A stretch of DNA of 64,000 nt from Promicromonospora sp. MEB111 (GTDB lineage Bacteria > Actinomycetota > Actinomycetes > Actinomycetales > Cellulomonadaceae), in assembly GCF_030209445.1 (NCBI RefSeq), contig NZ_JARVSD010000005.1, positions 62,001 to 126,000 of the forward strand, in the 5' to 3' direction. The notes below the pieces were generated by a model that ran no database searches, had not been told where the DNA came from, and saw only the letters and a list, made by a program, of their open reading frames with translations. A program made the position numbers and the translations under genes. This document shows, piece after piece, positions 6,198-28,757 of the stretch (its first letter is position 1; every line of letters begins with the position of its first letter).

Positions 6198-6235
6198 GTG
6201 GCCGGCGGCGGCCTGGTGGGGCCGCCGCCGGCCAC
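6198..6235. terminator. GC-rich hairpin after heptad-repeat gene
   Basis: Inverted repeat of 16 bases (6198-6213 and 6220-6235) with a 6-base loop, starting two bases after the stop codon of the heptad-repeat gene. No T-tract follows, as is common in very GC-rich actinobacteria. Confidence 0.6.
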
Positions 6236-6239
6236 CCTC

Positions 6240-6279
6240 GATCGCCGGGAACGGAGCACCTGCTCCGTTCCCGGCGATC
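6240..6279. terminator. Perfect 19-bp hairpin between convergent genes
   Basis: Arms 6240-6258 and 6261-6279 are perfect complements with only two bases between them, so a few pairs must open to form a loop. It lies between two convergent genes and probably terminates transcription from both sides. Confidence 0.6.
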
Positions 6280-6299
6280 CTCATGTCAGTGGCCGGCTG

Positions 6300-8680: not shown

Positions 8681-8711
8681 CCCGTTCCGAGCGTCCTACG
8701 ACGTCTGACAC

Positions 8712-8749
8712 CCGAGGCCCATCGGCAGTCCGCTGCCGGTGGGCCTCGG
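8712..8749. terminator. Hairpin terminator after LVIVD gene
   Basis: Arms 8712-8728 and 8733-8749 are 17 bases long, with one G-T wobble and a 4-base loop. It begins about 30 bases after the stop codon. Confidence 0.65.
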
Positions 8750-8754
8750 CATCT

Positions 8755-8818
8755 TCTTCGAGGCCGGGGTTGCTTCGCTTTGAGCGGCCGCAAAGCGGAG
8801 AAACCCCGGCCTCGAAGA
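8755..8818. terminator. Second long hairpin, possibly composite
   Basis: Perfect 17-base outer arms at 8755-8771 and 8802-8818 enclose an inner, nearly complementary 9-base pair (CTTCGCTTT / AAAGCGGAG). It directly follows another hairpin, so the LVIVD gene ends in two tandem structures before the next gene. Confidence 0.55.
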
Positions 8819-8909
8819 GGAGTACCTGGTCACCCCATTGCGTTGAGCACACCGCATCAGGGTTTTCCGTGATGGCGCGGACGGTGCTTTGTGTGGGAAC
8901 CTCCCGGAC

Positions 8910-9689
8910 ATGACGCCCCAGGACTCGACGACCGAGGAGGCCACCCCGCCGTCGGGCGAGGTGCCTGAGCACGAGCCCACGACCGCGCCGTCCGCCTACG
9001 GGCTCGGACGGCGACTGCGGATCATGGGCGCCGTCCTTGCCGGCGGCCTCGCCGTGGTGCTGGCGCTGCTGCTCTGGCTCGGCGTGCTGGTCCCGGCCAA
9101 GCAGGAGGCGGCCGGGTACTCGGAGGCCGACTCCGGCTACGCCGCCGTGGCGATCGAGCACAACGCGCAGGCCGTGCAGCTCGCGGCCCTCGCGCCGGGA
9201 CGCTCCACCGACGACGACGTGCTCGCCCTGGCCGTGGAGGTCGGCGAGGCGTCGGCGGGCCGGGTCGACGAGCTCGCCGCCTGGCTGGAGGCGCGGGACA
9301 TCCCGGTCCCCGCCGCGGGCCGGGAGGCGCTCGCGCTCGCCGAGGGCGGCCTGACGACCGAGGTGCCCGACGACGGCAGCGGGCCCCGGGCGGGTACGAC
9401 CGCCCACTCCCACGAGGGCGGGAACCACGGCATGCTCACCGACGAGCAGATCGACGCCATGGCCGGTCTGAAGGGCTCGGAGTTCGACATCGCGCTGCTG
9501 GCCGCGCTGGTCGAGCACCACTACGGCGGGCTGCAGCCGGCCGACAAGGAGATCGAGGGCGGCACGGACGCCGAGGCCAAGGCGCTGGCGCAGTCCGAGG
9601 CCGACGCGATCCGGGTCGAGGTCGAGGACGTCCGCGACCTGCTGGCCGCCGTCGGCGGGCCGGGCTCCACGAACGACCAGACGAACTAG
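8910..9689 (+). CDS. Membrane-anchored DUF305 domain protein
   Basis: 259 residues from the ATG at 8910; an upstream in-frame TTG at 8889 is less likely. Residues 1-37 are acidic and Pro/Thr-rich, and residues ~38-61 form a single membrane span. The rest is a DUF305 region outside the membrane. The second histidine signature is recognisable (LLAALVEHHYGGLQ), while the first is altered (VAIEHNAQAVQL, with one His replaced), so metal binding may differ from the lipoprotein paralogue at 6300-7016. It follows the LVIVD-repeat gene on the same strand, separated by two hairpins, so it is probably transcribed separately. Confidence 0.8.
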   Translation: MTPQDSTTEEATPPSGEVPEHEPTTAPSAYGLGRRLRIMGAVLAGGLAVVLALLLWLGVLVPAKQEAAGYSEADSGYAAVAIEHNAQAVQLAALAPGRSTDDDVLALAVEVGEASAGRVDELAAWLEARDIPVPAAGREALALAEGGLTTEVPDDGSGPRAGTTAHSHEGGNHGMLTDEQIDAMAGLKGSEFDIALLAALVEHHYGGLQPADKEIEGGTDAEAKALAQSEADAIRVEVEDVRDLLAAVGGPGSTNDQTN

Positions 9690-14169: not shown

Positions 14170-14359
14170 CCGTGCCGGCCGTGTCCAGCAATTCTCGGCC
14201 GGCCGGGGCCGGTCGCGGGGGCGAAACGGCGTGCCGGACCGGCGCGCCGCGGGTGAGACGTCTCGGATCGCGGCGAGACCTGGTGCGCGCGACGGGTCGT
14301 CCACCGTCTGCTGAGCGCGTCTCCGTCTCAAGGCGGAAGCGGTCGTGCCCCCGGTTTCC

Positions 14360-14365
14360 TACGCT
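14360..14365 (+). promoter_or_regulatory. -10 hexamer TACGCT, leaderless start of histidine kinase
   Basis: TACGCT lies six bases before the ATG at 14372, and no ribosome-binding site fits. Transcription would start at or next to the start codon. Confidence 0.5.
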
Positions 14366-14371
14366 GGGGGC

Positions 14372-15880
14372 ATGGCCGTTGCCCTACCTCAGCCGGATCC
14401 CCGGCGCCCCGACGCCGACGCCCGGCAGCCCGCTACGGGTCCCGCCGCGCCGTCCGGCCGCGCCCAGAACGCCGCCGGTCGCCTGGCCGACTGGTTCGGC
14501 GTCGACTCCGACTGGGAGCGGGTGCCTGCCGGGCGCGACGCCTACCGCCGGGACCTGCTGCTGGGCGCCGGCTTCGCGGTGTTCGCGGCGGTCTCGATCG
14601 AGCTGGGCCACAGCATGGGCCTCTTCGAGGACGTCGACGTGCCGCTGTGGCTGGTCTTCGTGCTCGGTGTGGCCAGCACCGTCCCGCTCGCGTGGCGCCG
14701 CCGCTACCCCCTGATCTCGCTGGTGCTGGTGTACGCGGCGTGGCTCGCGCTCGGGCTGACCATCCCGCCCATCACGATGCTCATGCCGATGCAGATCATG
14801 TACTTCGTGGCGATGTTCACCGCGGTGGCCTGGGCGCGCGACCGGCGGGCCATGCTCATCGTGGTCAGCGCGTGCACCATGGTGATGCTGGGGTGGGTCG
14901 CCTGGATGTTCGCCGTGCAGCAGGGCATCGAGACGCTCCTGGAGGAGTATCCGACGCCGGCCGACTGGCCCGGTCAGGTGGACCCGTACCTCGCCAGCGC
15001 GGTGTACCAGGTCATCATGAACGTCGCGTTCTTCGGCGGCGCGGTGCTGGCGGGGCAGATGCAGTGGAACGCGGCGCGCCGCCGGGAGATCCTCGCCGAC
15101 CAGGCGGTCACGATCGAGCGGCAGGCGGCCGCCCTCACCGACCAGGCCGTGGTCACCGAGCGGGTGCGGATCGCGCGCGAGCTGCACGACGTCGTCGCGC
15201 ACCACGTGTCCGTGATCGGCATCCAGGCGGCCGCCGCGCGCCGCGTGCTGGACCGGGACCCCGCCCTCGCGGCCGAGGCCCTGGCCACGATCGAGCGCGA
15301 GTCGCGCGAGGGCGTCACGCAGATGCGGAACCTGGTGGGCACCCTGCGTTCGGTGCCCGACGGCGGCGCCTCCGCCGGGTCGGACGGCGCCTCCCGCGCG
15401 CCGGAACCGGGGCTGGCCGACATCCCGGCCCTGGCCGCCGCCGACGACGACGGCCTGGACACCACGTACCGCCAGGTCGAGGAACCGCCCGGCGCGGCCC
15501 GCGACGTGCCCGATCCCATGGGGCTGAGTCTCTACCGAACCGCCCAGGAGGCGATGGCGAACGTGCGGAAGCACTCGACGGCCCGGTCCGCGACGGTCAC
15601 GCTCCGCGTGGTCCGCGGCCCGGAGGCACTGGCGGACGAGCGGTTCGCCCACGGTTACGCGGAGGTGGAGGTGCTCGACGACGGCCGGCCCCGCCACGGG
15701 ACGTCCGGCTCCGGGCTCGGCCAGCTCGGGATCCGGGAGCGCGTCGCGACGCACCGGGGCGTGGTCGAGATCGGGCCGCGCGCGATCGGCGGGTACCGCG
15801 TGCGCGTGCGGCTGCCGCTGCCCGCGCCGGACGCCGCGTCGGAGGTTCTCCCCGCCGCCCGGACCGAGGCCGTCGGATGA
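14372..15880 (+). CDS. NarL-type sensor histidine kinase
   Basis: 502 residues from the ATG at 14372 (a GTG at 14345 would add nine). Four to five membrane spans occupy residues ~60-225. The HisKA_3 dimerisation region contains RIARELHDVVAHHVSVIGIQ with phospho-acceptor His272. The ATPase part has LYRTAQEAMANVRKHS (N box) and a compact, degenerate G region (SGSGLGQLGIRERV). It would autophosphorylate in response to an unknown signal and pass phosphate to the regulator whose ATG overlaps its stop. The linker around residues 330-355 is Ala/Gly-rich and variable. Confidence 0.92.
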   Translation: MAVALPQPDPRRPDADARQPATGPAAPSGRAQNAAGRLADWFGVDSDWERVPAGRDAYRRDLLLGAGFAVFAAVSIELGHSMGLFEDVDVPLWLVFVLGVASTVPLAWRRRYPLISLVLVYAAWLALGLTIPPITMLMPMQIMYFVAMFTAVAWARDRRAMLIVVSACTMVMLGWVAWMFAVQQGIETLLEEYPTPADWPGQVDPYLASAVYQVIMNVAFFGGAVLAGQMQWNAARRREILADQAVTIERQAAALTDQAVVTERVRIARELHDVVAHHVSVIGIQAAAARRVLDRDPALAAEALATIERESREGVTQMRNLVGTLRSVPDGGASAGSDGASRAPEPGLADIPALAAADDDGLDTTYRQVEEPPGAARDVPDPMGLSLYRTAQEAMANVRKHSTARSATVTLRVVRGPEALADERFAHGYAEVEVLDDGRPRHGTSGSGLGQLGIRERVATHRGVVEIGPRAIGGYRVRVRLPLPAPDAASEVLPAARTEAVG

Positions 15881-16551
15881 CGCGCGTGCTGCTGGTCGAC
15901 GACCAGGCGCTCGTGCGTTCGGGCTTCTCCCTCATCCTCTCGGTGGAGGACGACCTCGAGGTGGTCGGCGAGGCGGGCGACGGCGCGACGGCGATCGAGC
16001 TGACGCGCGAGCTGCGCCCCGACATCGTGCTCATGGACGTGCAGATGCCCGTCATGGACGGTATCGAGGCCACGCGCCGCATCGTCGCGGAGGATCTCGC
16101 CAAGGTGCTCGTGCTCACCACGTTCGACCACGACGAGTACGTGTTCGACGGCCTCGCGGCCGGCGCCTCCGGGTTCCTGCTGAAGAACTCGGACGCGGAG
16201 CACCTCGTGGAGGCCGTGCGCACGGTGGCGGCCGGGCACGCGCTGCTGGCCCCGCAGATCACGCGACGGGTGATCGAGCAGATGGTGGCGGGGGAGCGGC
16301 CGTCGTCGGGCACGGTGGGTGCCCTGCGCGAGACGGCGAAGCCGGCGCCCGCGGGGCTCGCCCTCCTCACCCCGCGTGAGCGGGAGGTGCTGGAGCTGGT
16401 GGGCACCGGGCTGTCGAACGCGGAGATCGCCTCGACCCTGTTCCTCGGCGAGGCGACGATCAAGACGCACGTCTCGAACGTGCTGTCCAAGCTGCACCTG
16501 CGCGACCGCGTCCAGGCCGTGGTCCTGACCCACCGTCTGGGCCTGGTCTGA
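15877..16551 (+). CDS. NarL/FixJ-type response regulator
   Basis: 224 residues; ATG overlaps the kinase stop (ATGA). The receiver domain carries the acidic pair near residues 8-9, phospho-acceptor Asp54 (VLMDVQMPVMDG) and the T and K switch residues (VLTTFDHDEY, FLLKNS). The C-terminal LuxR HTH reads LTPREREVLELVGTGLSNAE. It is the cognate DNA-binding partner of the upstream kinase. Target genes are unknown; the nearby ABC exporter and propeller array are candidates only by proximity. A long bidirectional hairpin follows. Confidence 0.94.
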   Translation: MTRVLLVDDQALVRSGFSLILSVEDDLEVVGEAGDGATAIELTRELRPDIVLMDVQMPVMDGIEATRRIVAEDLAKVLVLTTFDHDEYVFDGLAAGASGFLLKNSDAEHLVEAVRTVAAGHALLAPQITRRVIEQMVAGERPSSGTVGALRETAKPAPAGLALLTPREREVLELVGTGLSNAEIASTLFLGEATIKTHVSNVLSKLHLRDRVQAVVLTHRLGLV

Positions 16552-16703: not shown

Positions 16704-17381
16704 CTATTCCGCGGAAGGGCTCGCCGAGGGTTCCGGCGACGGGCTGGTCGACGGTTCCGGCGTCGGTTCCGTCGTGGGCTCCGGGGTCGGCGTGGGCGAC
16801 GGCTCCGGGGTCGGGCGCGACGTCGGCTCCACGGACGGCTCCGGCGTGGGCTCCTGCGACGGCGGGTCGGAGGGCTCGGGCGTGGGCTCCGGGGTGGGAG
16901 TCGGAGTCGGGGTCGGCGTGGGCGTCGGCGTGGGTGTGGGCCGCGGCGTCGGCTTCTGCGTCGGCGGGTCGGTCGGCCTCGGCGTGGGCTTCGTGGTCGG
17001 CCGGGCCGGCGGGACGGGGTTGCCGGCTCCGGTGTCCGGCTCCGGCGCGATCGTGTAGTCGCTCGTCGGCGGCCCGTAGGTCTTCTCGGTGCTCTCCGGC
17101 GTGTTCTCCTGCGCCGACGGCGGCGGCGTGTACGTGAACGGGTTCTTCTGCGGCGCGGGCTTGCCGTGCACGTCGACCGTCGCGTTCTCGCCGGGCCCTG
17201 CCACGGGCTCACGCTTCAGCATCATGGGCGGCAGCCCCTGGAGGCTGTCGGCCGACGAGGCCCCTGCCGACGTCAGCCGGTTCTGGTCCTTGCCGGCCGG
17301 CTGCACGGCGACGGCACCCATGATTCCGGCCGTCAGCACCAAGGCCGCGGCCGTTCCTGTGATGAACAAACGCTTGCGCAC
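16704..17381 (-). CDS. Exported or membrane-anchored Pro/Thr/Glu-rich protein
   Basis: 225 residues from the GTG at 17381, which has GGGGGAG six bases upstream; the open frame extends further but without support. A basic start (RKRLF) leads into one hydrophobic segment (~residues 7-27), then a linker with FTYTPPP. From about residue 120 to the end come PT, PEPTPEPS and PSPEPSASPSAE repeats. Such tails are typical of cell-wall-spanning stalks or O-glycosylated linkers in actinobacteria, but no catalytic or binding domain is attached. Unknown function; it may be a wall-associated structural protein. Confidence 0.7.
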   Translation of the reverse strand: MRKRLFITGTAAALVLTAGIMGAVAVQPAGKDQNRLTSAGASSADSLQGLPPMMLKREPVAGPGENATVDVHGKPAPQKNPFTYTPPPSAQENTPESTEKTYGPPTSDYTIAPEPDTGAGNPVPPARPTTKPTPRPTDPPTQKPTPRPTPTPTPTPTPTPTPTPEPTPEPSDPPSQEPTPEPSVEPTSRPTPEPSPTPTPEPTTEPTPEPSTSPSPEPSASPSAE

Positions 17382-17638
17382 GCTTCGCTCCCCCTGCGGG
17401 TTCAGATGTTGCCCGGTGCCCCTGTGCCACGACGTCCCGGCCCGTGGGCCGAACCGCCATTCATCCGGCGGAGTGCGTTGCACATTCCTCCGCGGACGGG
17501 CTTTCGAACAGTTCACGGCCGCCCTTGTTCTGAGCGGCGTTCCGGACGGGACAATACGTGGCAGAACGACGACGGCAACCGGAACCTGTAATACCAGGTC
17601 AATGCCCGCGCGCCGGGGTCGGGGTAAGGAGTGCGGTC

Positions 17639-17781: not shown

Positions 17782-17787
17782 TAGCGT
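17782..17787 (+). promoter_or_regulatory. -10 hexamer TAGCGT, leaderless start of ABC ATPase
   Basis: TAGCGT is seven bases before the ATG at 17795, without a convincing ribosome site. Confidence 0.5.
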
Positions 17788-17794
17788 GAGGGCC

Positions 17795-18694
17795 ATGAGC
17801 GATCTGGAGGTGCGGGAGCTGACCCGCGTGTTCGCCTCGGGCGACACACCCCGGCGGGCGGTGGACGGCGTGAGCTTCACCGCGTCGTCGGGCCTGCTCA
17901 CCGGGTTCGTCGGTGGGAACGGTGCCGGCAAGACCACCACCATGCGGATGATCATGGGCGTGCTGGCGATCACGAGCGGCGAGGTGCTGTTCGACGGCTC
18001 CCCCGTCACCCGGCACGACCGCCGCGAGTTCGGCTACATGCCCGAGGAACGCGGCCTCTACCCCAAGCAGCCCGTGCTGGACCAGCTCGTCTACCTGGCG
18101 CGGCTGCGCGGCATCGACGCCCCCGCCGCCCGCCGCGAGGTGCTGGAGCACCTCGACCGGCTGGGGCTCGCGAGCCGGGCGAAGGACCACGTGGAGAAGC
18201 TGTCGCTCGGCAACCAGCAACGGGTGCAGATCGTCGCGGCGGTCATGGGGCAGCCCAAGGCGCTCGTGCTCGACGAGCCCTTCAGCGGGCTCGACCCCGC
18301 CGCCGTCGACGCGATGGCCGACCTGCTGCGCGAGCACACCCGGCGCGGCGTCCCCGTGCTGTTCAGCTCGCACCAGCTCGACCTGGTGGAGCGGCTGTGC
18401 GAGCGGCTCGTCATCCTGGGCGGGGGCCGGCTCCTCGCGAACGGCACCCCCGACGGCCTGCGCGCCCAGGGCGTCACCCGGCACCGGCTGGTCCTGTCGG
18501 GCGACGCCGGCTTCGTGCGCGGAGTGCCCGGCGTGCTCGCCGTCGACGTGGACGGTTCGTCCGCCCTGGTCGAGGTGCACGACGACGCCGCGGCCAGCCG
18601 CCTCCTGGCGGCCGCCCTGGACCGGGGCACCGTCCAGGAGTTCTCCCCGGTGCGGCCGACGCTGGCCCAGATCTACCGCGAGGTGACCGCGTGA
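17795..18694 (+). CDS. ABC transporter ATP-binding protein, NatA-like
   Basis: 299 residues. Walker A GGNGAGKTT at ~40-48, signature LSLGNQQR at ~136-143, Walker B ALVLDEP at ~156-162, and the switch histidine in SSHQLDL follow the expected order. The C-terminal ~80 residues form the DUF4162-like extension common in NatA-type exporter ATPases. It pairs with the permease at 18824-20053 to form an ABC-2 exporter. Between the two genes lie two copies of an interspersed repeat, and this gene's stop codon is the first base triplet of the shorter copy. Substrate unknown. Confidence 0.92.
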   Translation: MSDLEVRELTRVFASGDTPRRAVDGVSFTASSGLLTGFVGGNGAGKTTTMRMIMGVLAITSGEVLFDGSPVTRHDRREFGYMPEERGLYPKQPVLDQLVYLARLRGIDAPAARREVLEHLDRLGLASRAKDHVEKLSLGNQQRVQIVAAVMGQPKALVLDEPFSGLDPAAVDAMADLLREHTRRGVPVLFSSHQLDLVERLCERLVILGGGRLLANGTPDGLRAQGVTRHRLVLSGDAGFVRGVPGVLAVDVDGSSALVEVHDDAAASRLLAAALDRGTVQEFSPVRPTLAQIYREVTA

Positions 18695-18823: not shown

Positions 18824-20053
18824 ATGACGAGTGCATGGATGCTGGTGGCGACCCGCGAGATCGCGGTGCGGGCGCTCAACAAGGGGTTCCTGATCGGCCT
18901 CGCGGTCACCATCGCGATGATCGGCGGGCTGGTCGGCTTCAGCGCCTACATGGACGGGCGTACCGAGTCGTTCGACGTCGCCGTCGTGGCCGGGGACGAC
19001 GCCGCCCTGACGGCCGTCGAGTCCGCCCGCGACGGGGCGGCGGCGTCGGACCAGAACGTCGAGCTCGACGTGGTCCGGGTCGACGACGCGGCCGCCGCCG
19101 AGGCCGCCCTCGAGGACGAGACCGCCGACGCCTGGCTCAGCTCCGAGGCGACCCCCGGTGCCACCGGTGCCACGGGCGACGACGCGGCCACCGGCTGGTC
19201 CCTCTCCGGCTGGCGCGAGCCCGACGGCGACCTCGCCGGCCTGCTCGGCACCACCGTGCGCGACCAGGTCATGACCGACCGCGCGACCGGCGCGGGCACC
19301 ACCATCGAGGCGCTCACGGCGGGCAGCGAGATCGAGACCCAGCGCCTCGACGGCAACCCCGTGGACCCGCAGGTCGTATTCCTCGCGGGGTTCGTGCTCG
19401 CGTTCCTGTTCTTCACGGGCGCGGTCGGCTCGGGCGCGATGATCGCGGGCAGCGTCATCGAGGAGAAGCAGTCCCGGCTGGTCGAGATCATCGCGACCGC
19501 CGTACCGCTGCGGCAGCTCCTGGCGGGCAAGATCATCGGCAGCTCCGTGATCGCGCTGGCCCAGAACCTCCTGCTGGCCGCCGTCGGGCTCGTCGGGCTC
19601 TCGTTCACGGACCTCTCGGCGGTCCTGCCCGCGATGACGGCCACGATGGTCTGGTTCGTCGTCTTCTTCACCGTCGGGTTCGTCGCCGTCGCGGCCCTGT
19701 ACGCGGTCGCGGGCTCGCTCGCGTCCCGCACCGAGGACCTCCAGTACACGACGACCCCGCTGATGATGCTGCTCATGGGCGTCTACATCGTGACGTTCTC
19801 GGCCGACGGCGTGCTCGAACGGGTCCTGTCGTACATCCCGCCGGCGTCCATCGTGTCGATGCCGGTGCGGGTGCTCAACGGCGACGCGCTCTGGTGGGAG
19901 CCGGTCGTGTCGCTGCTCGTCCTCGTGGTCGCCACGCTGGGCGCCGTGCTGCTCAGCGAGCGCGCCTACCGGGGCGCGCTGATGCAGACCGGCGGCCGGG
20001 TCACGTGGAGGTCGGCCCTGGCCACGGACCGGGGCACTACCCTCGGGGCGTGA
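18824..20053 (+). CDS. ABC-2 type permease, NatB-like
   Basis: 409 residues from the ATG at 18824, with GGAGAGG seven bases upstream. One membrane span near residues 25-45 is followed by a ~150-residue acidic extracytoplasmic domain and then five to six spans. This layout, and ARSVIEEKQSRLVEII-like sequence (GSVIEEKQSRLVEIIATAV), are typical of NatB/ABC-2 exporters. With the upstream ATPase it would export an ion, lipid or peptide. Its stop overlaps the GTG of the first propeller gene (GTGA at 20050-20053), linking the exporter physically to the array. Confidence 0.9.
   Translation: MTSAWMLVATREIAVRALNKGFLIGLAVTIAMIGGLVGFSAYMDGRTESFDVAVVAGDDAALTAVESARDGAAASDQNVELDVVRVDDAAAAEAALEDETADAWLSSEATPGATGATGDDAATGWSLSGWREPDGDLAGLLGTTVRDQVMTDRATGAGTTIEALTAGSEIETQRLDGNPVDPQVVFLAGFVLAFLFFTGAVGSGAMIAGSVIEEKQSRLVEIIATAVPLRQLLAGKIIGSSVIALAQNLLLAAVGLVGLSFTDLSAVLPAMTATMVWFVVFFTVGFVAVAALYAVAGSLASRTEDLQYTTTPLMMLLMGVYIVTFSADGVLERVLSYIPPASIVSMPVRVLNGDALWWEPVVSLLVLVVATLGAVLLSERAYRGALMQTGGRVTWRSALATDRGTTLGA
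20038..20043 (+). promoter_or_regulatory. -10 hexamer TACCCT before propeller gene A
   Basis: TACCCT is six bases before the GTG at 20050 and lies inside the end of the permease gene. It may give propeller gene A its own transcript in addition to read-through. Confidence 0.45.
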
Positions 20054-21819
20054 CCGAACGCACCCAGCCCGACTCCGCCGCGCCCGGGAGCTCCGACCCC
20101 GAGAAGGTGCACACCTTCGACCTGATCGACGAGGTCCCGGGCGCGTCCGGCAGGACCGCCGGCCCCGACGACGTCCGTCCGGACGGCGCCGACCCGGGCG
20201 ACGGGTCCGGCACCGCGGCCGACGGTGACGGAGCATCCGCGCCCCGGGAGCCCGGACGGGTCACGGTGGCGCTCGCGGGTGCCCGCACCGCCGTCGGGCG
20301 GACGGCGCGGCGGGGCGGGGCGGCCGTGCGGCGGCGGCTGCCGAGCACCCGCCGGGGCAAGGTGCTGCTGGCGGGCGGGACAGCCGTCGTCGTCGTGCTG
20401 GCGGTCGTGGCGGGGGTGCTGGTCGACGCCCAGGTGCGGCACCGGGATCTGCTGGCCGCCCCGGGCGGCGTGCGGAGCCTGGCGGAGAAGCCCACCGAGC
20501 AGTGGTCCGTCGACCTGGAGAACCCGATCTCGGCGACCCTGGTCGAGATGCCGGGCCTCCTCGCGATCGTCGGGGACGAGCAGGTCCGCGGCGTGGACCC
20601 GGCCACGGGCGAGGTGCGCTGGACCGTGCACGTGGGGCAGTACCCGGACTGCGGCCCGACGGGGCGGCTCGGCGTGGGCGGACCGGTGTCCGCGGAACCG
20701 GCCGACCCCCTGGTCTGCGTCAGCTCCGGTGAGGCTCCGCAGGAGGTGACCGTGATCCGGCCGGACGGCACGACGGCGAGCCGCGAGCTCGACGAGGGCG
20801 CCGTGGTCGCCCCGGCCGCCGACGGCACGCTGATCACGTTCGAGCTCACGGGTGAGGAGCAGGAGCCGCGGCCCGTCGTGGTCGACAAGATGGGCGCCGC
20901 CCACCTCCCGAAGGGGTTCACGGGGCCCGACCTGGTGGTGCGCCGGGAGGACGCCGCCACCGGCGCGGAGCGCTGGAGCGAGACCGTCGCGTTCGGCGCC
21001 CCGCTGCCCGAGAGCTGCGTGACCTACGACGACAACGCGCCGAACCTGGACGTCGCCGGAGCCCTGGGCTGGACCCTGCTCGACGGCGTCCTGGAGGTGC
21101 AGGGCTGCGGCGTCTCCGCGGCCTTCCTGCTCGACGGCACGCGGCTCGACGATCCCGAGGACCCCGCGGACGCCCCGGCCGGCGGCCTGGACACCGCGTC
21201 GTTCGCGGCCCTGCCCGACGGCGGCTGGGTGCAGCCCGCGGCGGAGCCCGCCGCCGACGGCGCCGCCCGTGACGCGGTGCACCTCCCGGGCGGCGGCGCC
21301 GTGACCCTCGACGGCCGGGCCCTCGTGCCGTGGGCCACCGACGGCCGGGATCCGGGGCTGCTGCTGGCCCGCGTGGGCTCGCGGACGAGCGCCGTGTCCA
21401 CCGACGGCAAGGACGCCGGGGAGGTGCTCTGGACCGTGCCCGACCTCGCGGTCGTCGCGGTGCTGGCGCGGGTCTCCGGTACCGCCGTGGTCATGGACGA
21501 GGAGGGCGAGGTGCACGGGATCGACCTCGGCACCGGCGCGGAGCGCTGGACCGTCGACCCGGACGTGCTCTCCACGCACGGCATGGCCTGGACCGTGGAG
21601 TCGATGATCTTCGGGGCCTACACGGACGGCGACACCGTGCTGTTCCCGGCGTCCGCGGACCCCGCGGGCGACTCGTCGGGGCTGCGGCTGCTCGCGATCG
21701 ACGTCCGCGACGGCTCGGTGCGCTGGGAGGTCGACCAGGACACCCCCTACACGCAGGTGATCAGCGTGGACGGCTACGTCGCACAGATCACCCAGCAGGG
21801 TGTGGTGGGGCTCGGCTGA
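20050..21819 (+). CDS. Propeller array protein A: membrane-anchored PQQ-like beta-propeller
   Basis: 589 residues; GTG overlaps the exporter permease stop. The array motif appears as HTFDLIDE (residues 21-28), followed by an acidic linker, a basic stretch, one membrane span (~104-126) and a large extracytoplasmic domain. That domain has PQQ-type blade signatures (DPATGEVRWTV, AATGAERW, DLGTGAERWTV) and ends ...VVGLG. Conserved cysteines occur in PDCGP, LVCV, ESC and QGCGV. The C-x4/5-C pair found in proteins B-E is missing here. It is the most divergent member. No catalytic residues are evident; a scaffold or ligand-binding role is possible. Confidence 0.83.
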   Translation: MTERTQPDSAAPGSSDPEKVHTFDLIDEVPGASGRTAGPDDVRPDGADPGDGSGTAADGDGASAPREPGRVTVALAGARTAVGRTARRGGAAVRRRLPSTRRGKVLLAGGTAVVVVLAVVAGVLVDAQVRHRDLLAAPGGVRSLAEKPTEQWSVDLENPISATLVEMPGLLAIVGDEQVRGVDPATGEVRWTVHVGQYPDCGPTGRLGVGGPVSAEPADPLVCVSSGEAPQEVTVIRPDGTTASRELDEGAVVAPAADGTLITFELTGEEQEPRPVVVDKMGAAHLPKGFTGPDLVVRREDAATGAERWSETVAFGAPLPESCVTYDDNAPNLDVAGALGWTLLDGVLEVQGCGVSAAFLLDGTRLDDPEDPADAPAGGLDTASFAALPDGGWVQPAAEPAADGAARDAVHLPGGGAVTLDGRALVPWATDGRDPGLLLARVGSRTSAVSTDGKDAGEVLWTVPDLAVVAVLARVSGTAVVMDEEGEVHGIDLGTGAERWTVDPDVLSTHGMAWTVESMIFGAYTDGDTVLFPASADPAGDSSGLRLLAIDVRDGSVRWEVDQDTPYTQVISVDGYVAQITQQGVVGLG

Positions 21820-21836
21820 CTCGCGGGACCCGCGAG

Positions 21837-21842
21837 TAGGAT
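21837..21842 (+). promoter_or_regulatory. -10 hexamer TAGGAT before propeller gene B
   Basis: TAGGAT ends six bases before the ATG at 21849, and no ribosome site fits. Confidence 0.5.
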
Positions 21843-21848
21843 CCGGCC

Positions 21849-23474
21849 ATGTCGCGGCCTGACCAGCAGGAACCCATCGTCTTCGAGCTGGTCGAGCACA
21901 ACGGGCCGGACGCGGGCACCGACCACGGCGACGCCGACCCGGACGGCTCCCCCGGCCGTCGTGCGCCCCGGCTGCCCCGCGTGCCGCGGCGCACCTGGCT
22001 GGTCGCCGTCGCGGCAGTCGCGGTCGTGGTGGTGGGCGTCACCGCCGTCGACCTGGTGCGCGACCACCGGCGGGCCGAGGTGATGCGCACCTCGCCCATC
22101 GGGGTGGCGTCGCTCGACGACCCGCTCGCGAAGGCCTGGACCGTGCCCTTCGACGTCGCCGCCCCGGGTGGGGACCAGACGTTCGTGGACCAGCAGCTCC
22201 TGACCATGGACGGGCTGCTCGTGGTGCCCCCGGGCACCACGCGCGGCTTCGCCCAGGTGGACGTCTCCACCGGAGCCACGAAACCCGCCCGGGTCGGGTT
22301 CGAGGACGTCGTGGCCGTCGACCCAGGTTCGGGTGAGGTGGCCTGGCGCGTGCCCCTGGGCGAGAACCCCGTGTGCGGGCCGTCCGGCTACGACGCGTCG
22401 GTGTCGGCCGACGAGCTGGTGTGCGTGCAGGGCCCGGCGGACGCGCGCGAGGTGCTGACCGTCGCGGCGGACGGCGGTACGCGGACCCGGGCGGCGGACC
22501 TGGCGGACGGCGAGCAGATCTTCCCCGGGCCGGACGGCACGGCGGTGCGGGTGGTCCGGACCGGTGGCGCCGCCGAGGAGGCGGTGTGCGACCTGGGCGT
22601 CTGCACGCCGTCCGTCCTCACCGAGGGGCGCGACGTGCTGGTCACCGCTGAGGACGCCGCGACCGGCGCCGAGCGCTGGACGAGCACCCTGGAGTTCGAG
22701 CCGGTCGAGGTGATCAACTGCCAGCCGCTGGGTGACGGGTTCGAGCAGGGGAGCGTCGACGCCGACCGGGTCACCGTCCTCACCGGCGCGGAGTCCGTCA
22801 CCGTGGACGGCTGCGGCATCTCGGGCGTGCTGTCGGTGAGGGGCGTCCGGCTCGACCTCGCCGGCGAGTCCGATGCCGACGCCGACGTCGCCGGCGATCC
22901 CGGCCTGTCCTCGCACGCCTGGGTGAACGAGCTCGGCCCGGACCTCTTCGCCGTCGAGTCCGATCCCATGAGGACCGTCGTCGTGGACGGCGCGGGGAAG
23001 GTCCTGCGCACCCTGGACGGCTGGATGCAGGGCGGGAACGTGTCCCCCGACGCTCCCGACGACCTCTGGTTCGTGACGGCCCGGTCGGGCGGCTACGGGT
23101 TCGAGGCGGTGCGCGAGGACGGGTCGGTGGCCTGGAAGGACATGAACAGCCAGCGTGTCCTGCTCGTCGGCCGCGACGTGGTGGTCGCGGACCGCGGGTC
23201 CCGGGTGGTCGGGCTGGCCCGGGACACGGGCGAGCAGGTCTGGTCGTGGGAGAGCGGGGACATGGCGGGCATGGCCCGCTACCGGGTGCTGACCGACGGC
23301 GAGACCGTGGTCCTGGAGCACATGCGCCAGGAGGGCACCGGCGCGGGCCTGCTGGTGGCGCTCGACCTCGGCACGGGCGAGCAGGTCTGGGACGCGCCGC
23401 TCGCGGGCTCCGCCGTCGCGGTGGACGGGCACGTCGTGGAGGTCGGCCCGGAGGGCCTGGCCGGCCTGGGATGA
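21849..23474 (+). CDS. Propeller array protein B
   Basis: 541 residues. The array motif is IVFELVEH at residues 10-17, then a short acidic linker, a basic run and a membrane span (~49-69). The outer domain carries blade-like sequences (DPGSGEVAWRV, AATGAERW, LGTGEQVW) and ends LAGLG. Six cysteines match the array pattern: PVCGP, LVCV, the pair C-x4-C (CDLGVC), INC and DGCGI. The closing segment DGHVVEVGPEGLAGLG aligns with the ends of all other members. Role unknown; inferred to act outside the membrane. Confidence 0.83.
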   Translation: MSRPDQQEPIVFELVEHNGPDAGTDHGDADPDGSPGRRAPRLPRVPRRTWLVAVAAVAVVVVGVTAVDLVRDHRRAEVMRTSPIGVASLDDPLAKAWTVPFDVAAPGGDQTFVDQQLLTMDGLLVVPPGTTRGFAQVDVSTGATKPARVGFEDVVAVDPGSGEVAWRVPLGENPVCGPSGYDASVSADELVCVQGPADAREVLTVAADGGTRTRAADLADGEQIFPGPDGTAVRVVRTGGAAEEAVCDLGVCTPSVLTEGRDVLVTAEDAATGAERWTSTLEFEPVEVINCQPLGDGFEQGSVDADRVTVLTGAESVTVDGCGISGVLSVRGVRLDLAGESDADADVAGDPGLSSHAWVNELGPDLFAVESDPMRTVVVDGAGKVLRTLDGWMQGGNVSPDAPDDLWFVTARSGGYGFEAVREDGSVAWKDMNSQRVLLVGRDVVVADRGSRVVGLARDTGEQVWSWESGDMAGMARYRVLTDGETVVLEHMRQEGTGAGLLVALDLGTGEQVWDAPLAGSAVAVDGHVVEVGPEGLAGLG

Positions 23475-23512
23475 CCTCCCGCGAGGGGCTGATCTGAGGC
23501 ACCGGGCGGCGT

Positions 23513-23518
23513 TACGCT
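23513..23518 (+). promoter_or_regulatory. -10 hexamer TACGCT before propeller gene C
   Basis: TACGCT ends six bases before the ATG at 23525. Confidence 0.5.
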
Positions 23519-23524
23519 CGCCGC

Positions 23525-25270
23525 ATGGCGCGCGACCCGGACGAGGGCGCTGCGTACGTCTTCGACCTGGTCGACGACGACGCGGCCGACCCGGGCGCGC
23601 TGCTCGGCGCCGCCCGGACGGACGGTACGGGCGGCCCGGGGAACCCCGACCGCGGTGCCGGTGCGGACGGTGCCGGAGCCGACGGCGCCGGAGCTGACGG
23701 CGCCGGGTCCCCGGCGGGCGGGCCGGCGGTGTCGGGCGGCCAGGTCGTCACGTGGCGCCGTGCGGCGCCGCTCGTGGCCCTGCTCGCGGTGGCGCTGGGC
23801 ACGGGGCTGGCGGTCGACGGCGCGCGTGACGCCGCCCGGATGGAGCGGATGCGCGACGCCCCCGGTGGGGTCGCGGACCTGTCCGTGCCGCTCGACGAGA
23901 CCTGGGTCTGGCAGGGCAAGGTCGACCTCGGCGAGGGCATGACCGACGTCGCGGTGCTCGGCGGCGACCTGGTGTTCGAGTCGGAGGGCGAGCTGGTCGC
24001 GCTTGACCCGGCCACGGGCGAGGAGTCCTGGACGGTCGAGCTCGGCGCAGGCCCGGAGTGCGGCCCCACGGTGTCGCCGGTGTGGGACGACCCGACGACG
24101 CCGTCGCTCGTGTGCCTTCAGGAGCGAGGCCGCGAGACCGAGGTGATCGTGGTGCGGCCGGGCGGCGAGACGTCGGCCCCGCGCCTGCTCCCCGCTGCCG
24201 ACGCCGCCCGGTACGGGCAGCCGCACACCGGGCCGGACGGGACGGTCCTGCGCGCGCGGCGCGTCGGGCCCGAGACGTCGCTGGGCGAGGACGTCCGGTG
24301 CGACGAGTCGGGCGAGTGCAACGGGCAGATCGTCGACGGGCGTGACCTGGTGCTCCGCGCCGAGGACGCCGTCACGGGCGAGGAGCGCTGGAGCGTGACG
24401 GTGCCGTTCCACCCCACGGAGGCCGCGCAGTGCACCAGCTCGTTCAGCGCGGCCTGGGGGAGTTCGGAGAACCGCATCCACCTCAGCGGGCAGCTCGCCC
24501 CCGAGGCCTTCGGCGCCCGCGTCCGGGCCGACCTCGTGAACGTGGAGGGCTGCGGCGTCCAGGCCGCCGTCACGTCGTCCGGGGTGCTGCTCGGCAGCCG
24601 CCTCGAGCCGGGTTCGAGCGTGGTGGGACGGCTCGACTCGGGGGGATACCTCGGGATGACCTGGGACGGCGTGACGCGCACCCTCCTGTACGACGCCGAC
24701 GGCGCGACCCGGGGCAAGGTGAGCGGGTACGTGATCGCCCCGAAGTCCACGGACGAGGCCGGCCCGGCCACCCTGCTCGCGATCGACGAGCCGCGGCGTC
24801 GCCTGTCGGCCCACGAGGCCGACGGGACCGCGCGCTGGGACATCGCGCTCCAGTCCGGCGGGCAGGAGTTCCTCGCCCAGGTGGGCGAGACGGCGGTGAT
24901 CACCACGGGGGCGGGGACCGTCCGGGGCCTCGACCTGGCGACCGGCGAGGAGAGGTGGACCTGGGACGGCTCGGACCCCGACGTGCTGGCCGACGGCGGC
25001 TACTTCGGCACCGCCTACGTGGTCCAGTCGTTCACCGACGGCGAGGTCGTGCTCCTGCTGGCCGAGGGCAACGGCACCGTCGCGCGGGGCATGGTGGCCC
25101 TCGACGCGGGCACGGGCGAGGTGGTCTGGGACGAGGCCGGTGGCGGGCCGGGCACCACGCTCGACCCGCACGACGGCGACGTGGTCCGGCAGGGTGTCAC
25201 CGGCGACCTGGTCGCGGTGGACGGGCACCTGATGGAGGTCGGGTCGGTCGGCGTCCGCGGTCTCGGGTGA
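23525..25270 (+). CDS. Propeller array protein C
   Basis: 581 residues. The array motif is YVFDLVDD at residues 11-18. The linker contains a GADGA tandem repeat (~residues 46-62), then one membrane span (~80-99). After ARDAARMERMR the outer domain shows blade signatures (DPATGEESWTV, AVTGEERW, LATGEERWTW) and ends VRGLG. Cysteines: PECGP, LVCL, C-x5-C (CDESGEC), AQC and EGCGV. It is close to D and E in sequence, so recent duplication is likely. Its stop codon begins TGAGCCGGAGGCG, the same opening as the interspersed repeat. Confidence 0.84.
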   Translation: MARDPDEGAAYVFDLVDDDAADPGALLGAARTDGTGGPGNPDRGAGADGAGADGAGADGAGSPAGGPAVSGGQVVTWRRAAPLVALLAVALGTGLAVDGARDAARMERMRDAPGGVADLSVPLDETWVWQGKVDLGEGMTDVAVLGGDLVFESEGELVALDPATGEESWTVELGAGPECGPTVSPVWDDPTTPSLVCLQERGRETEVIVVRPGGETSAPRLLPAADAARYGQPHTGPDGTVLRARRVGPETSLGEDVRCDESGECNGQIVDGRDLVLRAEDAVTGEERWSVTVPFHPTEAAQCTSSFSAAWGSSENRIHLSGQLAPEAFGARVRADLVNVEGCGVQAAVTSSGVLLGSRLEPGSSVVGRLDSGGYLGMTWDGVTRTLLYDADGATRGKVSGYVIAPKSTDEAGPATLLAIDEPRRRLSAHEADGTARWDIALQSGGQEFLAQVGETAVITTGAGTVRGLDLATGEERWTWDGSDPDVLADGGYFGTAYVVQSFTDGEVVLLLAEGNGTVARGMVALDAGTGEVVWDEAGGGPGTTLDPHDGDVVRQGVTGDLVAVDGHLMEVGSVGVRGLG

Positions 25271-25289
25271 GCCGGAGGCGGCTCCGGCA

Positions 25290-25295
25290 TACCCT
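25290..25295 (+). promoter_or_regulatory. -10 hexamer TACCCT before propeller gene D
   Basis: TACCCT ends seven bases before the ATG at 25303. A small GCCGGAG/CTCCGGC hairpin lies just upstream. Confidence 0.5.
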
Positions 25296-25302
25296 CGACC
25301 TC

Positions 25303-26988
25303 ATGGCGCGAGAACCGGGCGAGGGCGGTCGGCTCGTCTTCGACCTGGTCGACGACGCCGCGGGTGCCGAGGCGCCGTTCACCCGGTCCGGCCCCGACGA
25401 GCCGCCTCCTCCGGACGGCGACGAGGGCGGCGCCGGTCCGGACCCGGACGGCCCGTGGCCGCCGCCGGGCGCGCCGAGCGGGAGGCTGCGCCTCCTGGTA
25501 CCGGTCGCCGCGGTGCTGGCCGTCGTGCTCGGGACCGGCCTGGCCGTCGAGGGCGCGCGGGACGGCGCGCGGATGGAGCGGATGCGCGACGTCAGCGGCG
25601 GCGTCGCGGACGTGTCCGTCCCGCTGGCGGAGACCTGGCGGTGGGAGGGCCTGGTCGGGTCCCGGAAGGCGATCGACGAGGGACGCGGCAACGAGGTGGC
25701 CGTGCTCGGCGACGTCCTGGTCTTCGAGTCCGACGGCGAGCTCGTCGCGCTGCGCCCGGCGACGGGCGACGAGGCGTGGACCGTGCCGCTCGGGGAGAAC
25801 CCGGACTGCGGCCCGTTCGGGGCCGCGGGCTGGGCCCGGACGACCACGCCGTCCCTGGTGTGCCTGGAGGGCTCGGGCCCGGACCGGGCGGTCACGATGG
25901 TCGGGCCCGACGGCGTCGTGTCGGCCCGGCGGGAGCTTCCGGCCGCGGACACCGACCGGTTCGGGCTGCCGCGGCCCGGGCCGGACGGCACCGTGCTGCG
26001 CGCGCGGCGGGCGGGACCCGGGTCGGCCGTGGACCTGGGCGACGCGCGGTGCACGGACACGGGCGAGTGCTCCGGCACGGTGGCGGACGGCCAGGGCCTC
26101 GCGCTCCGCGCCGAGGACGCCGTCACGGGCGACGAGCGCTGGAGCACGGTCGTGCCCTTCCGGCCCACCCGGGCCGACCAGTGCAACAACTGGCTCGGCT
26201 CGTCCTGGGACGGCTCGGGCAACGCCGTGGACCTCGCGCAGATGATCGATCCGAGGGTCTTCGGCGCGCGGATCGGCGCCGACCTCGTGCAGCTCTACGG
26301 CTGCGGCATCGAGACGGCCGTCACCCCGGGCGGGGTGCCGCTCGGCACGGAGATCGAGCCGGGGACGGGCGGTGTGAGCAGCCTCGTCTCGGGCGGGTAC
26401 ACCGGGTTCACCTTCGAGGGCATGGTGCGGACGGTCCTGTACGACGGCGACGGCGCCGTCGTCGGCGAGATCGAGGGGCACGCGCTGGAGCCGGGGGTGA
26501 CGGACGGCCAGGGTCCGGGCGTGCTGCTGGCCATGGACACGGCCGGACCGCGGCTGCGGGCCTACGAGACCGACGGGACGCTGCGCTGGGACGCCACGAC
26601 GCGCGCCGGCGGCCAGCTCTTCCTCGCCCAGGTGGCCGGGACGATGGTCGTGATGACCGGGGCCGGGGACGTGCGGGGCCTGGACGCCGCGACCGGCGAG
26701 ACACGCTGGGTCTGGGACAGCACGGACGACGCCGACGGCCGGTACCCCGAGGACCTCTTCGTGTCCCGCACGTTCACGGACGGCGAGTCGGTGCTGCTGC
26801 TCACCGAGAACGGGTCCGGCGGTGCGGGCCTGGTGGCACTCGACGCGGCCTCGGGCGAGATCGTCTGGGAGCAGCACGGTGACACGGCGGTCACCGGCGG
26901 CATCTACCAGGGGTTCGACACCTCGCTCGTCGCCGTGGACGGGCACCTGCTGGAGGTCACGCCGTCGGGCGTCCGCGGCCTGGGCTGA
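25303..26988 (+). CDS. Propeller array protein D
   Basis: 561 residues. The array motif is LVFDLVDD at residues 11-18, with a Pro/Asp-rich linker and a membrane span at ~62-82. The juxtamembrane stretch ARDGARMERMRD is shared with C. Outer-domain blade signatures include RPATGDEAWTV, AVTGDERW and AATGETRWVW; the end is VRGLG. Cysteines: PDCGP, LVCL, C-x5-C (CTDTGEC), DQC and YGCGI. It has the same order of features as C and E, which points to tandem duplication with retained function. Substrate or partner unknown. Confidence 0.84.
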   Translation: MAREPGEGGRLVFDLVDDAAGAEAPFTRSGPDEPPPPDGDEGGAGPDPDGPWPPPGAPSGRLRLLVPVAAVLAVVLGTGLAVEGARDGARMERMRDVSGGVADVSVPLAETWRWEGLVGSRKAIDEGRGNEVAVLGDVLVFESDGELVALRPATGDEAWTVPLGENPDCGPFGAAGWARTTTPSLVCLEGSGPDRAVTMVGPDGVVSARRELPAADTDRFGLPRPGPDGTVLRARRAGPGSAVDLGDARCTDTGECSGTVADGQGLALRAEDAVTGDERWSTVVPFRPTRADQCNNWLGSSWDGSGNAVDLAQMIDPRVFGARIGADLVQLYGCGIETAVTPGGVPLGTEIEPGTGGVSSLVSGGYTGFTFEGMVRTVLYDGDGAVVGEIEGHALEPGVTDGQGPGVLLAMDTAGPRLRAYETDGTLRWDATTRAGGQLFLAQVAGTMVVMTGAGDVRGLDAATGETRWVWDSTDDADGRYPEDLFVSRTFTDGESVLLLTENGSGGAGLVALDAASGEIVWEQHGDTAVTGGIYQGFDTSLVAVDGHLLEVTPSGVRGLG

Positions 26989-27040
26989 CGGAGCGCCGCG
27001 GGCGGCCCGCGCTCTGGGTGAGCGGACGGCCCGTGCGGCA

Positions 27041-27046
27041 TACGCT
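27041..27046 (+). promoter_or_regulatory. -10 hexamer TACGCT before propeller gene E
   Basis: TACGCT ends seven bases before the ATG at 27054, which supports that ATG over the earlier in-frame start at 27018. Confidence 0.5.
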
Positions 27047-27053
27047 CGGTGGT

Positions 27054-28757
27054 ATGGCTCGTCACGCGGACGACGACGCCGTCGTCTTCGACCTGGTCGA
27101 CGACGAGGGACGCCGGACCGCGTCGTCCGCCCCGCCGTCGGTCGAGGGCGAGGACGCTCCGGGTGAGGGTGCCCCGGACGGGGACGGCCCGGGCGAGGCC
27201 GGTCCGGCGTCCGGCGGGCCGCGTCCGGCGGGCGACCCGGCGCGTGCCGCGGTCCGGCGGCGGCGCACGCTCGTCGGCGCCCTCGTGGTCGCGGCGGTGC
27301 TGGGCACCGGGCTCGTCGTCGACGGCGTGCGCGACGCCGCGCGGGCCGAGCAGATCAGGTCCGTGCGCGGCGGCGTCGTGGACGTGTCCGCGCCGCTGGA
27401 CGAGGTGTGGGCGTGGCGCGGCGCCGTCGGCTCGCGCCGGGCGTTCGTGCGGGGCGAGGGCAACCAGGTCGCCGCCCTCGGCCCCTTCCTCGCGTTCGAG
27501 TCCGACGGCGGGCTGCTGGCCCTGCGCGCGGCCAGCGGCGAGGAGGGGTGGACCGTACCGCTCGGGGAGGACCCGGACTGCGGGCCGACCGGCTACCTGG
27601 GCTGGTCGGGGGTGGCGACGGAGGTCCTGGTCTGCCTCCAGGGTTCGGGGGCGGAGCGCGAGGTCTTCACCGTGGGGCCCGACGGCGTGGCCTCCGCGCC
27701 GCGCGCGCTCGACGCCGGGGACGAGCAGCGGTACGGCTACGCCCGGCCCGGCCCCGAGGGGACCGTGCTGCGCGCCCGGCGGATCGGGCCCGAGCCGGCG
27801 GACGGGGACGGCGCCCAGTGCCCGGACGAGGGGGAGTGCAGCGGGACGGTCGCGGCGGGCCGGGACCTGCTGCTGCGCGCCGAGGACGCCCTGACGGGCG
27901 AGGAGCGCTGGAGCGCCGTCGTCCCCTTCCGGGCGATGGCGGCCGAGGGCTGCCGGGCCGGACCCTTCCTGCCCTGGGACGGGAGGGACGACATCGTGCG
28001 GTCCGGCGAGCACCTCGACCCCGAGGGGTTCGGTGCGCGGATCGAGCCGGGCCTCGTCCAGGTGTGGGGGTGCGGCTTCCGGGCCGGCGTCACCGCGGAC
28101 GGCGCCGTGCTGATGATGGAGGGCGTGCCGGGGTTCGCGTCGGTGGTCGGCCTCGACACGGGCGGGTACGTCGCGCAGACGATCGCCCAGCGGTACGCCG
28201 GCAGGATGGACAGCGCGCTCTACTCCCCGGACGGCGCGGCGGTCCGGAAGGTCGCCGGGACCCTGAACCGCCCGCAGACCACGGACGATCCTCGTGCGGC
28301 CACGCTCCTCTCGACGGAACCGCCCGGGGGGCGCCTGCGGTCGTACGCGGCAGACGGGACGCAGCGCTGGGACGTCGCGGTGCGGGACGGCACGGCCCAG
28401 TTCCTGGCCCAGGTGGACCGGACGGTGGTGACCACGACCTGGACCGGGGGTGTGCGCGGGCTGGACCTCGACACGGGCGCGGTCCGCTGGACGTGGCGCA
28501 CGCAGGGCGGCCTGTACGACTGGCCTTACGAGAGCAGCTATGTGTCGCAGGCCTTCACCGACGGGCAGTCGCTCCTGCTGCTCCTGGAAAGCGGGAGCGG
28601 CGACCAGGGGCTCGTGTCGCTCGACGTGGCCTCGGGCGAGCTGGTCTGGGACGGGACCTCGTCGCACGTCCTCACCCCGAAGCCGGACACGATGCTGCTC
28701 GCGGTGGACGGGAACCTGCTGGAGGTCTCGCTGGACGGGGTCCGGCGGCTGGGCTGA
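27054..28757 (+). CDS. Propeller array protein E
   Basis: 567 residues from the ATG at 27054. The array motif is VVFDLVDD at residues 10-17, followed by a Gly/Pro/acidic linker, RRR and a membrane span (~72-90). Outer-domain signatures are RAASGEEGWTV, ALTGEERW and LDTGAVRWTW, with a closing VRRLG. Cysteines: PDCGP, LVCL, C-x5-C (CPDEGEC), EGC and WGCGF. It is the last member, followed closely by an unrelated endonuclease IV-type gene with its own promoter. The array is therefore bounded by the ABC exporter on the left and DNA-repair-type metabolism on the right. Confidence 0.84.
   Translation: MARHADDDAVVFDLVDDEGRRTASSAPPSVEGEDAPGEGAPDGDGPGEAGPASGGPRPAGDPARAAVRRRRTLVGALVVAAVLGTGLVVDGVRDAARAEQIRSVRGGVVDVSAPLDEVWAWRGAVGSRRAFVRGEGNQVAALGPFLAFESDGGLLALRAASGEEGWTVPLGEDPDCGPTGYLGWSGVATEVLVCLQGSGAEREVFTVGPDGVASAPRALDAGDEQRYGYARPGPEGTVLRARRIGPEPADGDGAQCPDEGECSGTVAAGRDLLLRAEDALTGEERWSAVVPFRAMAAEGCRAGPFLPWDGRDDIVRSGEHLDPEGFGARIEPGLVQVWGCGFRAGVTADGAVLMMEGVPGFASVVGLDTGGYVAQTIAQRYAGRMDSALYSPDGAAVRKVAGTLNRPQTTDDPRAATLLSTEPPGGRLRSYAADGTQRWDVAVRDGTAQFLAQVDRTVVTTTWTGGVRGLDLDTGAVRWTWRTQGGLYDWPYESSYVSQAFTDGQSLLLLLESGSGDQGLVSLDVASGELVWDGTSSHVLTPKPDTMLLAVDGNLLEVSLDGVRRLG

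Follow-up and report, generated by a model that had tools for sequence, protein, structure and literature searches.

Tandem single-span PQQ-like propeller proteins with a shared N-terminal tail in Promicromonospora

Results and Discussion

Five tandem propeller genes

We analysed a stretch of 64,000 nucleotides (nt) from the genome of Promicromonospora sp. MEB111 (NZ_JARVSD010000005.1, positions 62,001 to 126,000; called the window below, with position 1 as its first letter), in which five consecutive paralogous genes at 20050–28757 encode membrane-anchored proteins with a pyrroloquinoline quinone (PQQ)-like propeller. An initial annotation, made from the sequence alone, had described five tandem genes of one common plan at this place, and the reading frames are indeed open from every start codon it gave. 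The proteins can be aligned over their full length with pairwise identities of 29–56%, and all five carry an N-terminal motif, a variable linker, a single span and a propeller and end in GLG or RLG (5/5), just as had been described.

20050..21819, forward strand: paralogue 1 (P0001, 589 amino acids (aa)), GTG start; tail VHTFDLIDE, long linker, span, propeller; orthologous clade 1
21849..23474, forward strand: paralogue 2 (P0002, 541 aa), tail IVFELVEH
23525..25270, forward strand: paralogue 3 (P0003, 581 aa), tail YVFDLVDD
25303..26988, forward strand: paralogue 4 (P0004, 561 aa), tail LVFDLVDD; the better of the two modelled proteins (see below)
27054..28757, forward strand: paralogue 5 (P0005, 567 aa), tail VVFDLVDD

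The GTG of the first gene overlaps the TGA of the preceding permease gene (GTGA at 20050–20053), as was also annotated. The genome of 6.23 Mb contains no other full-length copies, the one additional match being a piece of 276 bases (E 8.6e-4), and full-length matches to P0001 in named Promicromonospora species show 66–71% identity. An RNA element or a tRNA as the rationale of the locus was dropped, as the window gave no Rfam match and a single tRNA at 6206–6297.

Fold and predicted topology

All five proteins match PF13360 (PQQ_2) above the Pfam gathering threshold of 27.6 bits (41.1, 47.0, 43.3, 54.6 and 37.6 bits for P0001 to P0005). Structure prediction, which the initial annotation had proposed as a check, was carried out with AlphaFold2 for P0004 (92-row alignment; mean predicted local distance difference test score (pLDDT) 87.4, predicted template modelling score (pTM) 0.83) and P0001 (62-row alignment; 84.4 and 0.79), and returned in both paralogues a disordered N-terminus, one long helix containing the single span, and a propeller. 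The two models, together with a Foldseek search of the P0004 model, give a closed propeller of four-stranded blades. Nine four-stranded units were counted in each model from the strand listing of the printed secondary structure, not from coordinates; some strands of units 2, 4 and 6 are weak, and the last unit is closed by the strand directly after the span (W112 in P0004). With the P0004 model as query, the Foldseek list was headed by BamB and designed propellers (E about 1e-11, target TM-score about 0.5), and since the scores against the designs Cake8, Cake9 and Cake10 are nearly equal (0.50, 0.51 and 0.52), the number of blades is given solely by the strand listing; such middling scores could also come from a ring of another blade number and do not prove nine blades. 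A profile search of the PDB sequences ranked Cake designs first, followed by the quinoprotein ethanol dehydrogenase 1flg (E 1.3e-14), another Cake design and BamB (2.1e-11).

Four cysteines are invariant in 92/92 members (C169, C187, C294 and C334 in P0004 numbering) and all lie in the outer part of the protein, which fits an oxidising outside. No lipobox cysteine is present, the first cysteine of P0004 not occurring before residue 169 and the invariant ones being located in the outer domain. From these cysteines and the fold, the N-terminus is predicted to be inside and the propeller with the C-terminus outside. In P0001 the residues 71–96 (window 20260–20337) are predicted to form a basic helix on the cytoplasmic side, ahead of the span (pLDDT about 60–75), which the P0004 model does not contain. 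The five proteins gave no match to the PADLOC anti-phage defence models at 0.01 (0 matches for 5/5), and a role as a defence system was rejected.

The N-terminal tail

The most conserved cytoplasmic feature of the proteins is the short tail close to their N-terminus. Its presence had been seen in the initial annotation, which did not give it this weight.

20116..20133, forward strand: tail codons of paralogue 1 (FDLIDE)
21882..21899, forward strand: tail codons of paralogue 2 (FELVEH)
23561..23578, forward strand: tail codons of paralogue 3 (FDLVDD)
25339..25356, forward strand: tail codons of paralogue 4 (FDLVDD)
27087..27104, forward strand: tail codons of paralogue 5 (FDLVDD)

When 92 members were aligned and weighted, F13 of P0004 ranked 11 of 561 positions in conservation (F accounting for 89% by weight) and position 14 was occupied by D or E in all 92 sequences, while conservation was lowest in the linker residues 20–60 (0.80 bits vs 2.25 for residues 12–19). 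Because most start codons in this alignment had been picked with the motif in view, the test was repeated with motif-blind starts set solely by TANNNT plus 6–7 nt, and such a start was found in 99 of 115 open reading frames (ORFs) of the family. The strict motif F[DE][LVI] occurs within 30 residues of 94 of these 99 starts and the relaxed form [FVI][DE][LVIFP] at all 99, with a mean of 5.2 and a maximum of 12 in a shuffled-tail control. Among the 16 ORFs lacking a leaderless start five are cut, masked or unclear; the 11 readable ones comprise five with the strict motif, five with I, L or V for F and one, from genome G178, with none. In the genome of the window itself a strict form of the tail, one that misses the FELVEH of paralogue 2, has seven matches, four in array genes and three in other ORFs (by sequence reading a ZIP-type transporter, an ArsR-type regulator and a DnaE2-like polymerase), where it is never N-terminal; further N-terminal carriers of this strict form were not found there.

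Promoters and evolution of the array positions

Each gene is preceded by its own -10-like hexamer, and the five boxes, already pointed out by the initial annotation, end at a distance of 6 or 7 nt from the start codons.

20038..20043, forward strand: -10 box TACCCT of gene 1, inside the natB 3' end; putative leaderless-type promoter
21837..21842, forward strand: -10 box TAGGAT of gene 2; putative leaderless-type promoter
23513..23518, forward strand: -10 box TACGCT of gene 3; putative leaderless-type promoter
25290..25295, forward strand: -10 box TACCCT of gene 4; putative leaderless-type promoter
27041..27046, forward strand: -10 box TACGCT of gene 5; putative leaderless-type promoter

Across the relatives TANNNT ends 4–12 nt upstream of the start in 97/108 genes, with 96 sites at 6–7 nt, and within Promicromonospora in 55/56 genes; 200 shuffles of the upstream sequences gave 2.2 on average and never more than 6. 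With a box of its own every gene looks separately transcribed and leaderless. Leaderless genes are common in Actinobacteria, and the signature is consistent with independent promoters and not special.

In a tree of 108 proteins, reconstructed by a quick method, the positions 1, 2, 3 and 4 of the array form clades of 11, 12, 12 and 9 rows with a support of 99–100 and position 5 forms a clade of eight rows with a support of 90. G001_3/G011_4 form a pair that belongs to none of the clades of positions 3, 4 and 5, the positions 2 and 5 are missing in G012, and two genomes of Promicromonospora have a sixth, dispersed propeller lineage outside the array (L055 and L060). The 11 intact arrays contain three to five copies. 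When the window was compared with four genomes, the ratio of nonsynonymous to synonymous differences per site (pN/pS) of the outer domain was 0.36–0.76 in 20/20 ortholog comparisons and that of the linker 0.4–1.1; the ratios are hand-derived, uncorrected for saturation or codon bias, and refer to whole regions and not to single sites. Orthologous positions and outer-domain ratios below 1 argue for stable paralogues rather than for diversifying selection.

In the GTDB family of the window some match is found in 145 of 221 genomes, many of them weak. A first look at 119 genomes of the order, for which at most 11 candidates per genome were scored, gave full-length matches exclusively in genomes of this same family, the rest being short.

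A second propeller family in the order

Three of these short order-level matches led to f48, another family of the order with tandem single-span propellers. Its arrays (L173:4861–14434, L174, L175, L176, L177 and L179) encode proteins with an N-terminal tail of the DEF[TA][LI] type, and in 24 of the 26 ORFs found the N-terminus is available. All 24 show [DEN][DE]F-x-[LIVPF] before the linker, an expression composed after viewing the f48 sequences, with L, I or V at the last place in 21 and P in three. The first two blades are homologous between the two families (hhalign probability 98%, E 1e-13, 94 columns). The f48 family resembles the window set in its single span, variable linker, tail motif and first blades; it differs in being shorter (about 390–510 aa), in having the leaderless start signature in only 1/26 rows, and in its domain matches, one of two copies scanned matching PQQ_2 and the other no Pfam family. 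It also forms a separate clade with its own duplications: in an unrooted tree of 60 proteins, built by a quick method and with its long branches flagged, the two families stand apart with full support and each has duplicated by itself. A gene at L179:7490–7942 opens with an f48-type tail and encodes only 151 aa, and a MacB-like permease is located some 3 kb from an f48 array.

Comparison with known propeller proteins

BamB is an eight-bladed lipoprotein of the β-barrel assembly machinery (BAM) complex and a scaffold without enzyme activity. The window proteins resemble BamB (YfgL) in the PQQ-like propeller, as BamB is among the top Foldseek and the profile matches, and differ from it by a transmembrane anchor, a conserved cytoplasmic tail, about nine blades and the missing lipobox cysteine; their scores against TIGR03300, the BamB equivalog model, are 12.6–32.4 bits vs 285.2. 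The Rv3212 family (NF050114) is similar in its short N-terminus, single span, propeller and a CG...C pair in the first blades, and an alignment of both families gives an hhalign probability of 92% (E 7e-7, 295 columns). In contrast to the window family its members have about 400 aa with one match per genome, and the five relatives read have neither the tail motif nor a long linker. The best scores against NF050114 are 24.8 and 24.2 bits at a cut-off of 150, and in the genome of the window this model has no match at 1e-3; the Rv3212 family is also present in Corynebacterium glutamicum. Rv3212 is named in published pull-down listings for FtsB (PMC6872210) and for the divisome protein Rv0954 (PMC8093794), and appears in a table of targeted genes (PMC6299477). 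No paper treating Rv3212 together with a β-propeller was found in the open-licence literature. The PQQ-dependent alcohol dehydrogenases (TIGR03075) share the propeller repeats and are far off in score, with 30.4 bits as the best value against a cut-off of 480. A paper on a BamB-like gene of Deinococcus (PMC9425974) was dropped as a comparison, and PgfA was considered as an analogue, for which the cited paper gives a β-barrel-like structure (PMC9678360); PMC10171966 and PMC12421883 contributed nothing to the comparison. The initial annotation had named a known family with an assigned function as the finding that would speak against its proposal; the proteins belong neither to the BamB nor to the Rv3212 family as modelled, and do carry the known PQQ_2 domain.

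Neighbouring genes

Upstream of the array lie genes for a histidine kinase, a LuxR-type regulator and the NatA- and NatB-like parts of an ATP-binding cassette (ABC) exporter, and downstream those for a TIM-barrel protein of the apurinic/apyrimidinic (AP) endonuclease family (Nfo-like) and an epimerase.

17786..18694, forward strand: NatA-like ABC ATPase (ABC_tran, DrrA1-3_C); putative functional link
18827..20053, forward strand: NatB-like permease (ABC2_membrane_3), start chosen inside an ORF open from 18758; putative functional link

In 11 of 13 Promicromonospora genomes NatA, NatB and the array follow directly on one another. The remaining two, G001 and G004, are broken assemblies, and in G004 pieces of NatB and a propeller gene still lie side by side; the Nfo-like gene follows the array in 13/13. 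Outside the genus we examined stretches of 12–16 kb around the copies in 23 genomes taken from the best matches. NatB is located within about 4 kb of the copies in nine of them (G032, G033, G146, G148, G152, G153, G158, G160 and G178), which belong to the three genera g3 (putative Antribacter), g9 (putative Isoptericola) and g15. It was not found in the stretches of the other 14, seven of which represent one genus, g6 (putative Cellulosimicrobium); in the g6 genome scanned the copies adjoin branched-chain amino acid ABC ATPases. Copies without a NatB match at 1e-40 are present in G163 (g9), and in G196 NatB lies about 11 kb off on the opposite strand. A mycothiol S-transferase and a GGDEF protein are further neighbours outside the genus. 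Next to the propeller gene of G178 are genes for an extracytoplasmic function (ECF) sigma factor (L067:9339–9935) and for a protein of 427 aa without Pfam match (8059–9339).

Proposed role and alternatives

We tentatively explain the array, at what we would call close to an even chance, by lineage-restricted scaffold or adaptor propellers of the envelope, which are docked by their shared inner tail to one cytoplasmic partner. The propeller would be BamB-like, probably free of a cofactor, and held outside by one membrane helix, with the N-terminus inside and the C-terminus outside. The tail F-[DE]-[LIV]-x-[DEP], following about 10–20 residues, would dock all paralogues to a single common partner in the cytoplasm, with the long variable linker as a tether, and the diverged outer propellers would bind envelope proteins or ligands as stable modules that cannot replace one another. 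A leaderless promoter of its own would allow each single copy to be kept, lost or moved. As to the process served, the cell-wall or division machinery would be our guess, because the distant relative Rv3212 appears in two pull-down tables; since the Rv3212 relatives lack the tail, it is meant as a lead only. It also seems possible to us, at somewhat less than an even chance, that the F-x-[LIV] tail is an undescribed docking signal read by one conserved actinobacterial protein that recruits sets of outer propellers, and that the two families built their arrays separately around this same signal.

Several points weigh against the scaffold or adaptor explanation. The G178 copy that adjoins NatB has no tail motif, and in five copies without a leaderless start I, L or V replaces its F. 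The tail has a low pLDDT of about 50 in both models, and the pN/pS of the short N-terminal segment is not always low (pN 0–0.22 over 17–28 codons). The topology is deduced from cysteines and fold, and with five Rv3212 relatives lacking the tail the pull-down data transfer weakly. Finally, the conservation of the motif may have another cause, such as insertion, stability or translation.

Alternatively, the propellers could serve the adjoining NatAB exporter as subunits with an accessory or substrate-recognising role, which we consider unlikely. The contiguous order in 11/13 Promicromonospora genomes, the proximity of NatB in 9/23 outside genomes of three genera and the overlap of gene 1 with the natB stop point to such subunits; against them stand the 14/23 outside genomes without NatB in the stretch, half of them from g6, with other ABC ATPases as the neighbours in the g6 genome scanned, as well as G163, the distant and oppositely oriented NatB of G196, and the -10-like box of each gene, which makes an operon unnecessary. 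The adjacency to the exporter seen by the initial annotation holds in the genus and in three further genera, and the synteny comparison it had suggested gave a copy number of 3–5 beside NatAB in the genus and a NatB linkage that is not general outside.

It appears similarly unlikely that the proteins are transmembrane sensors, in which the propeller would sense an outer ligand and the tail hold a cytoplasmic regulator, e.g. a sigma factor. Anti-sigma sensors have the same N-in topology, and a conserved cytoplasmic peptide and the ECF sigma factor gene adjoining the G178 copy would fit; on the other hand, no anti-sigma domain reaches its cut-off (one match of 15.5 bits vs 100, over the span region of P0002), none of the other seven neighbours scanned is a sigma gene, and the G178 protein beside the sigma factor is the one without the tail motif.

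Variable surface receptors kept for their diversity, as the initial annotation proposed, are very unlikely. Tandem paralogues, a copy number of 3–5 and the linker ratios of 0.4–1.1 are in line with such receptors, yet most positions are separate orthologous clades across the genus and the outer-domain pN/pS is below 1 in all 20 comparisons, which for domains taken as a whole largely refutes the idea. The scaffold or binding role suggested alongside it is supported as a possibility. Least probable are enzymes of the outer surface, PQQ-dependent or other: the repeats of PQQ type, the weak matches to NCBIfam models of PQQ alcohol dehydrogenases and the rank of 1flg above BamB, if below Cake designs, would agree with them, but TIGR03075 stays far under its cut-off and, in line with the absence of a known enzyme motif stated by the initial annotation, no enzyme family model reaches its cut-off in the five proteins, so that the PQQ enzyme reading was rejected.

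A described function for single-span PQQ-like propellers in Actinobacteria was not found in the accessible open-licence literature, outside of which most subscription journals lie, and neither were tandem sets of this kind, tail-tagged and stably partitioned, in two families. The kind of domain is already known. Almost every copy in the two families retains the short cytoplasmic motif, although the linkers and propellers have diverged, and this makes the function directly testable with the tail peptide as bait. A division or cell-wall protein as partner would mean a BamB-like scaffold layer for Gram-positives; with a transporter or regulator as partner, the proteins would represent a new class of receptors.

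Two further features lie upstream of the array. The histidine kinase and LuxR-type regulator genes (window 14345–16551) precede natAB likewise in several genomes of the genus. Between these two-component genes and natA the reverse strand encodes a proline/threonine/glutamate-rich protein without Pfam match (16704–17531), which has counterparts of 46–64% identity in 10 of the 12 other genomes of the genus, in the stretches examined.

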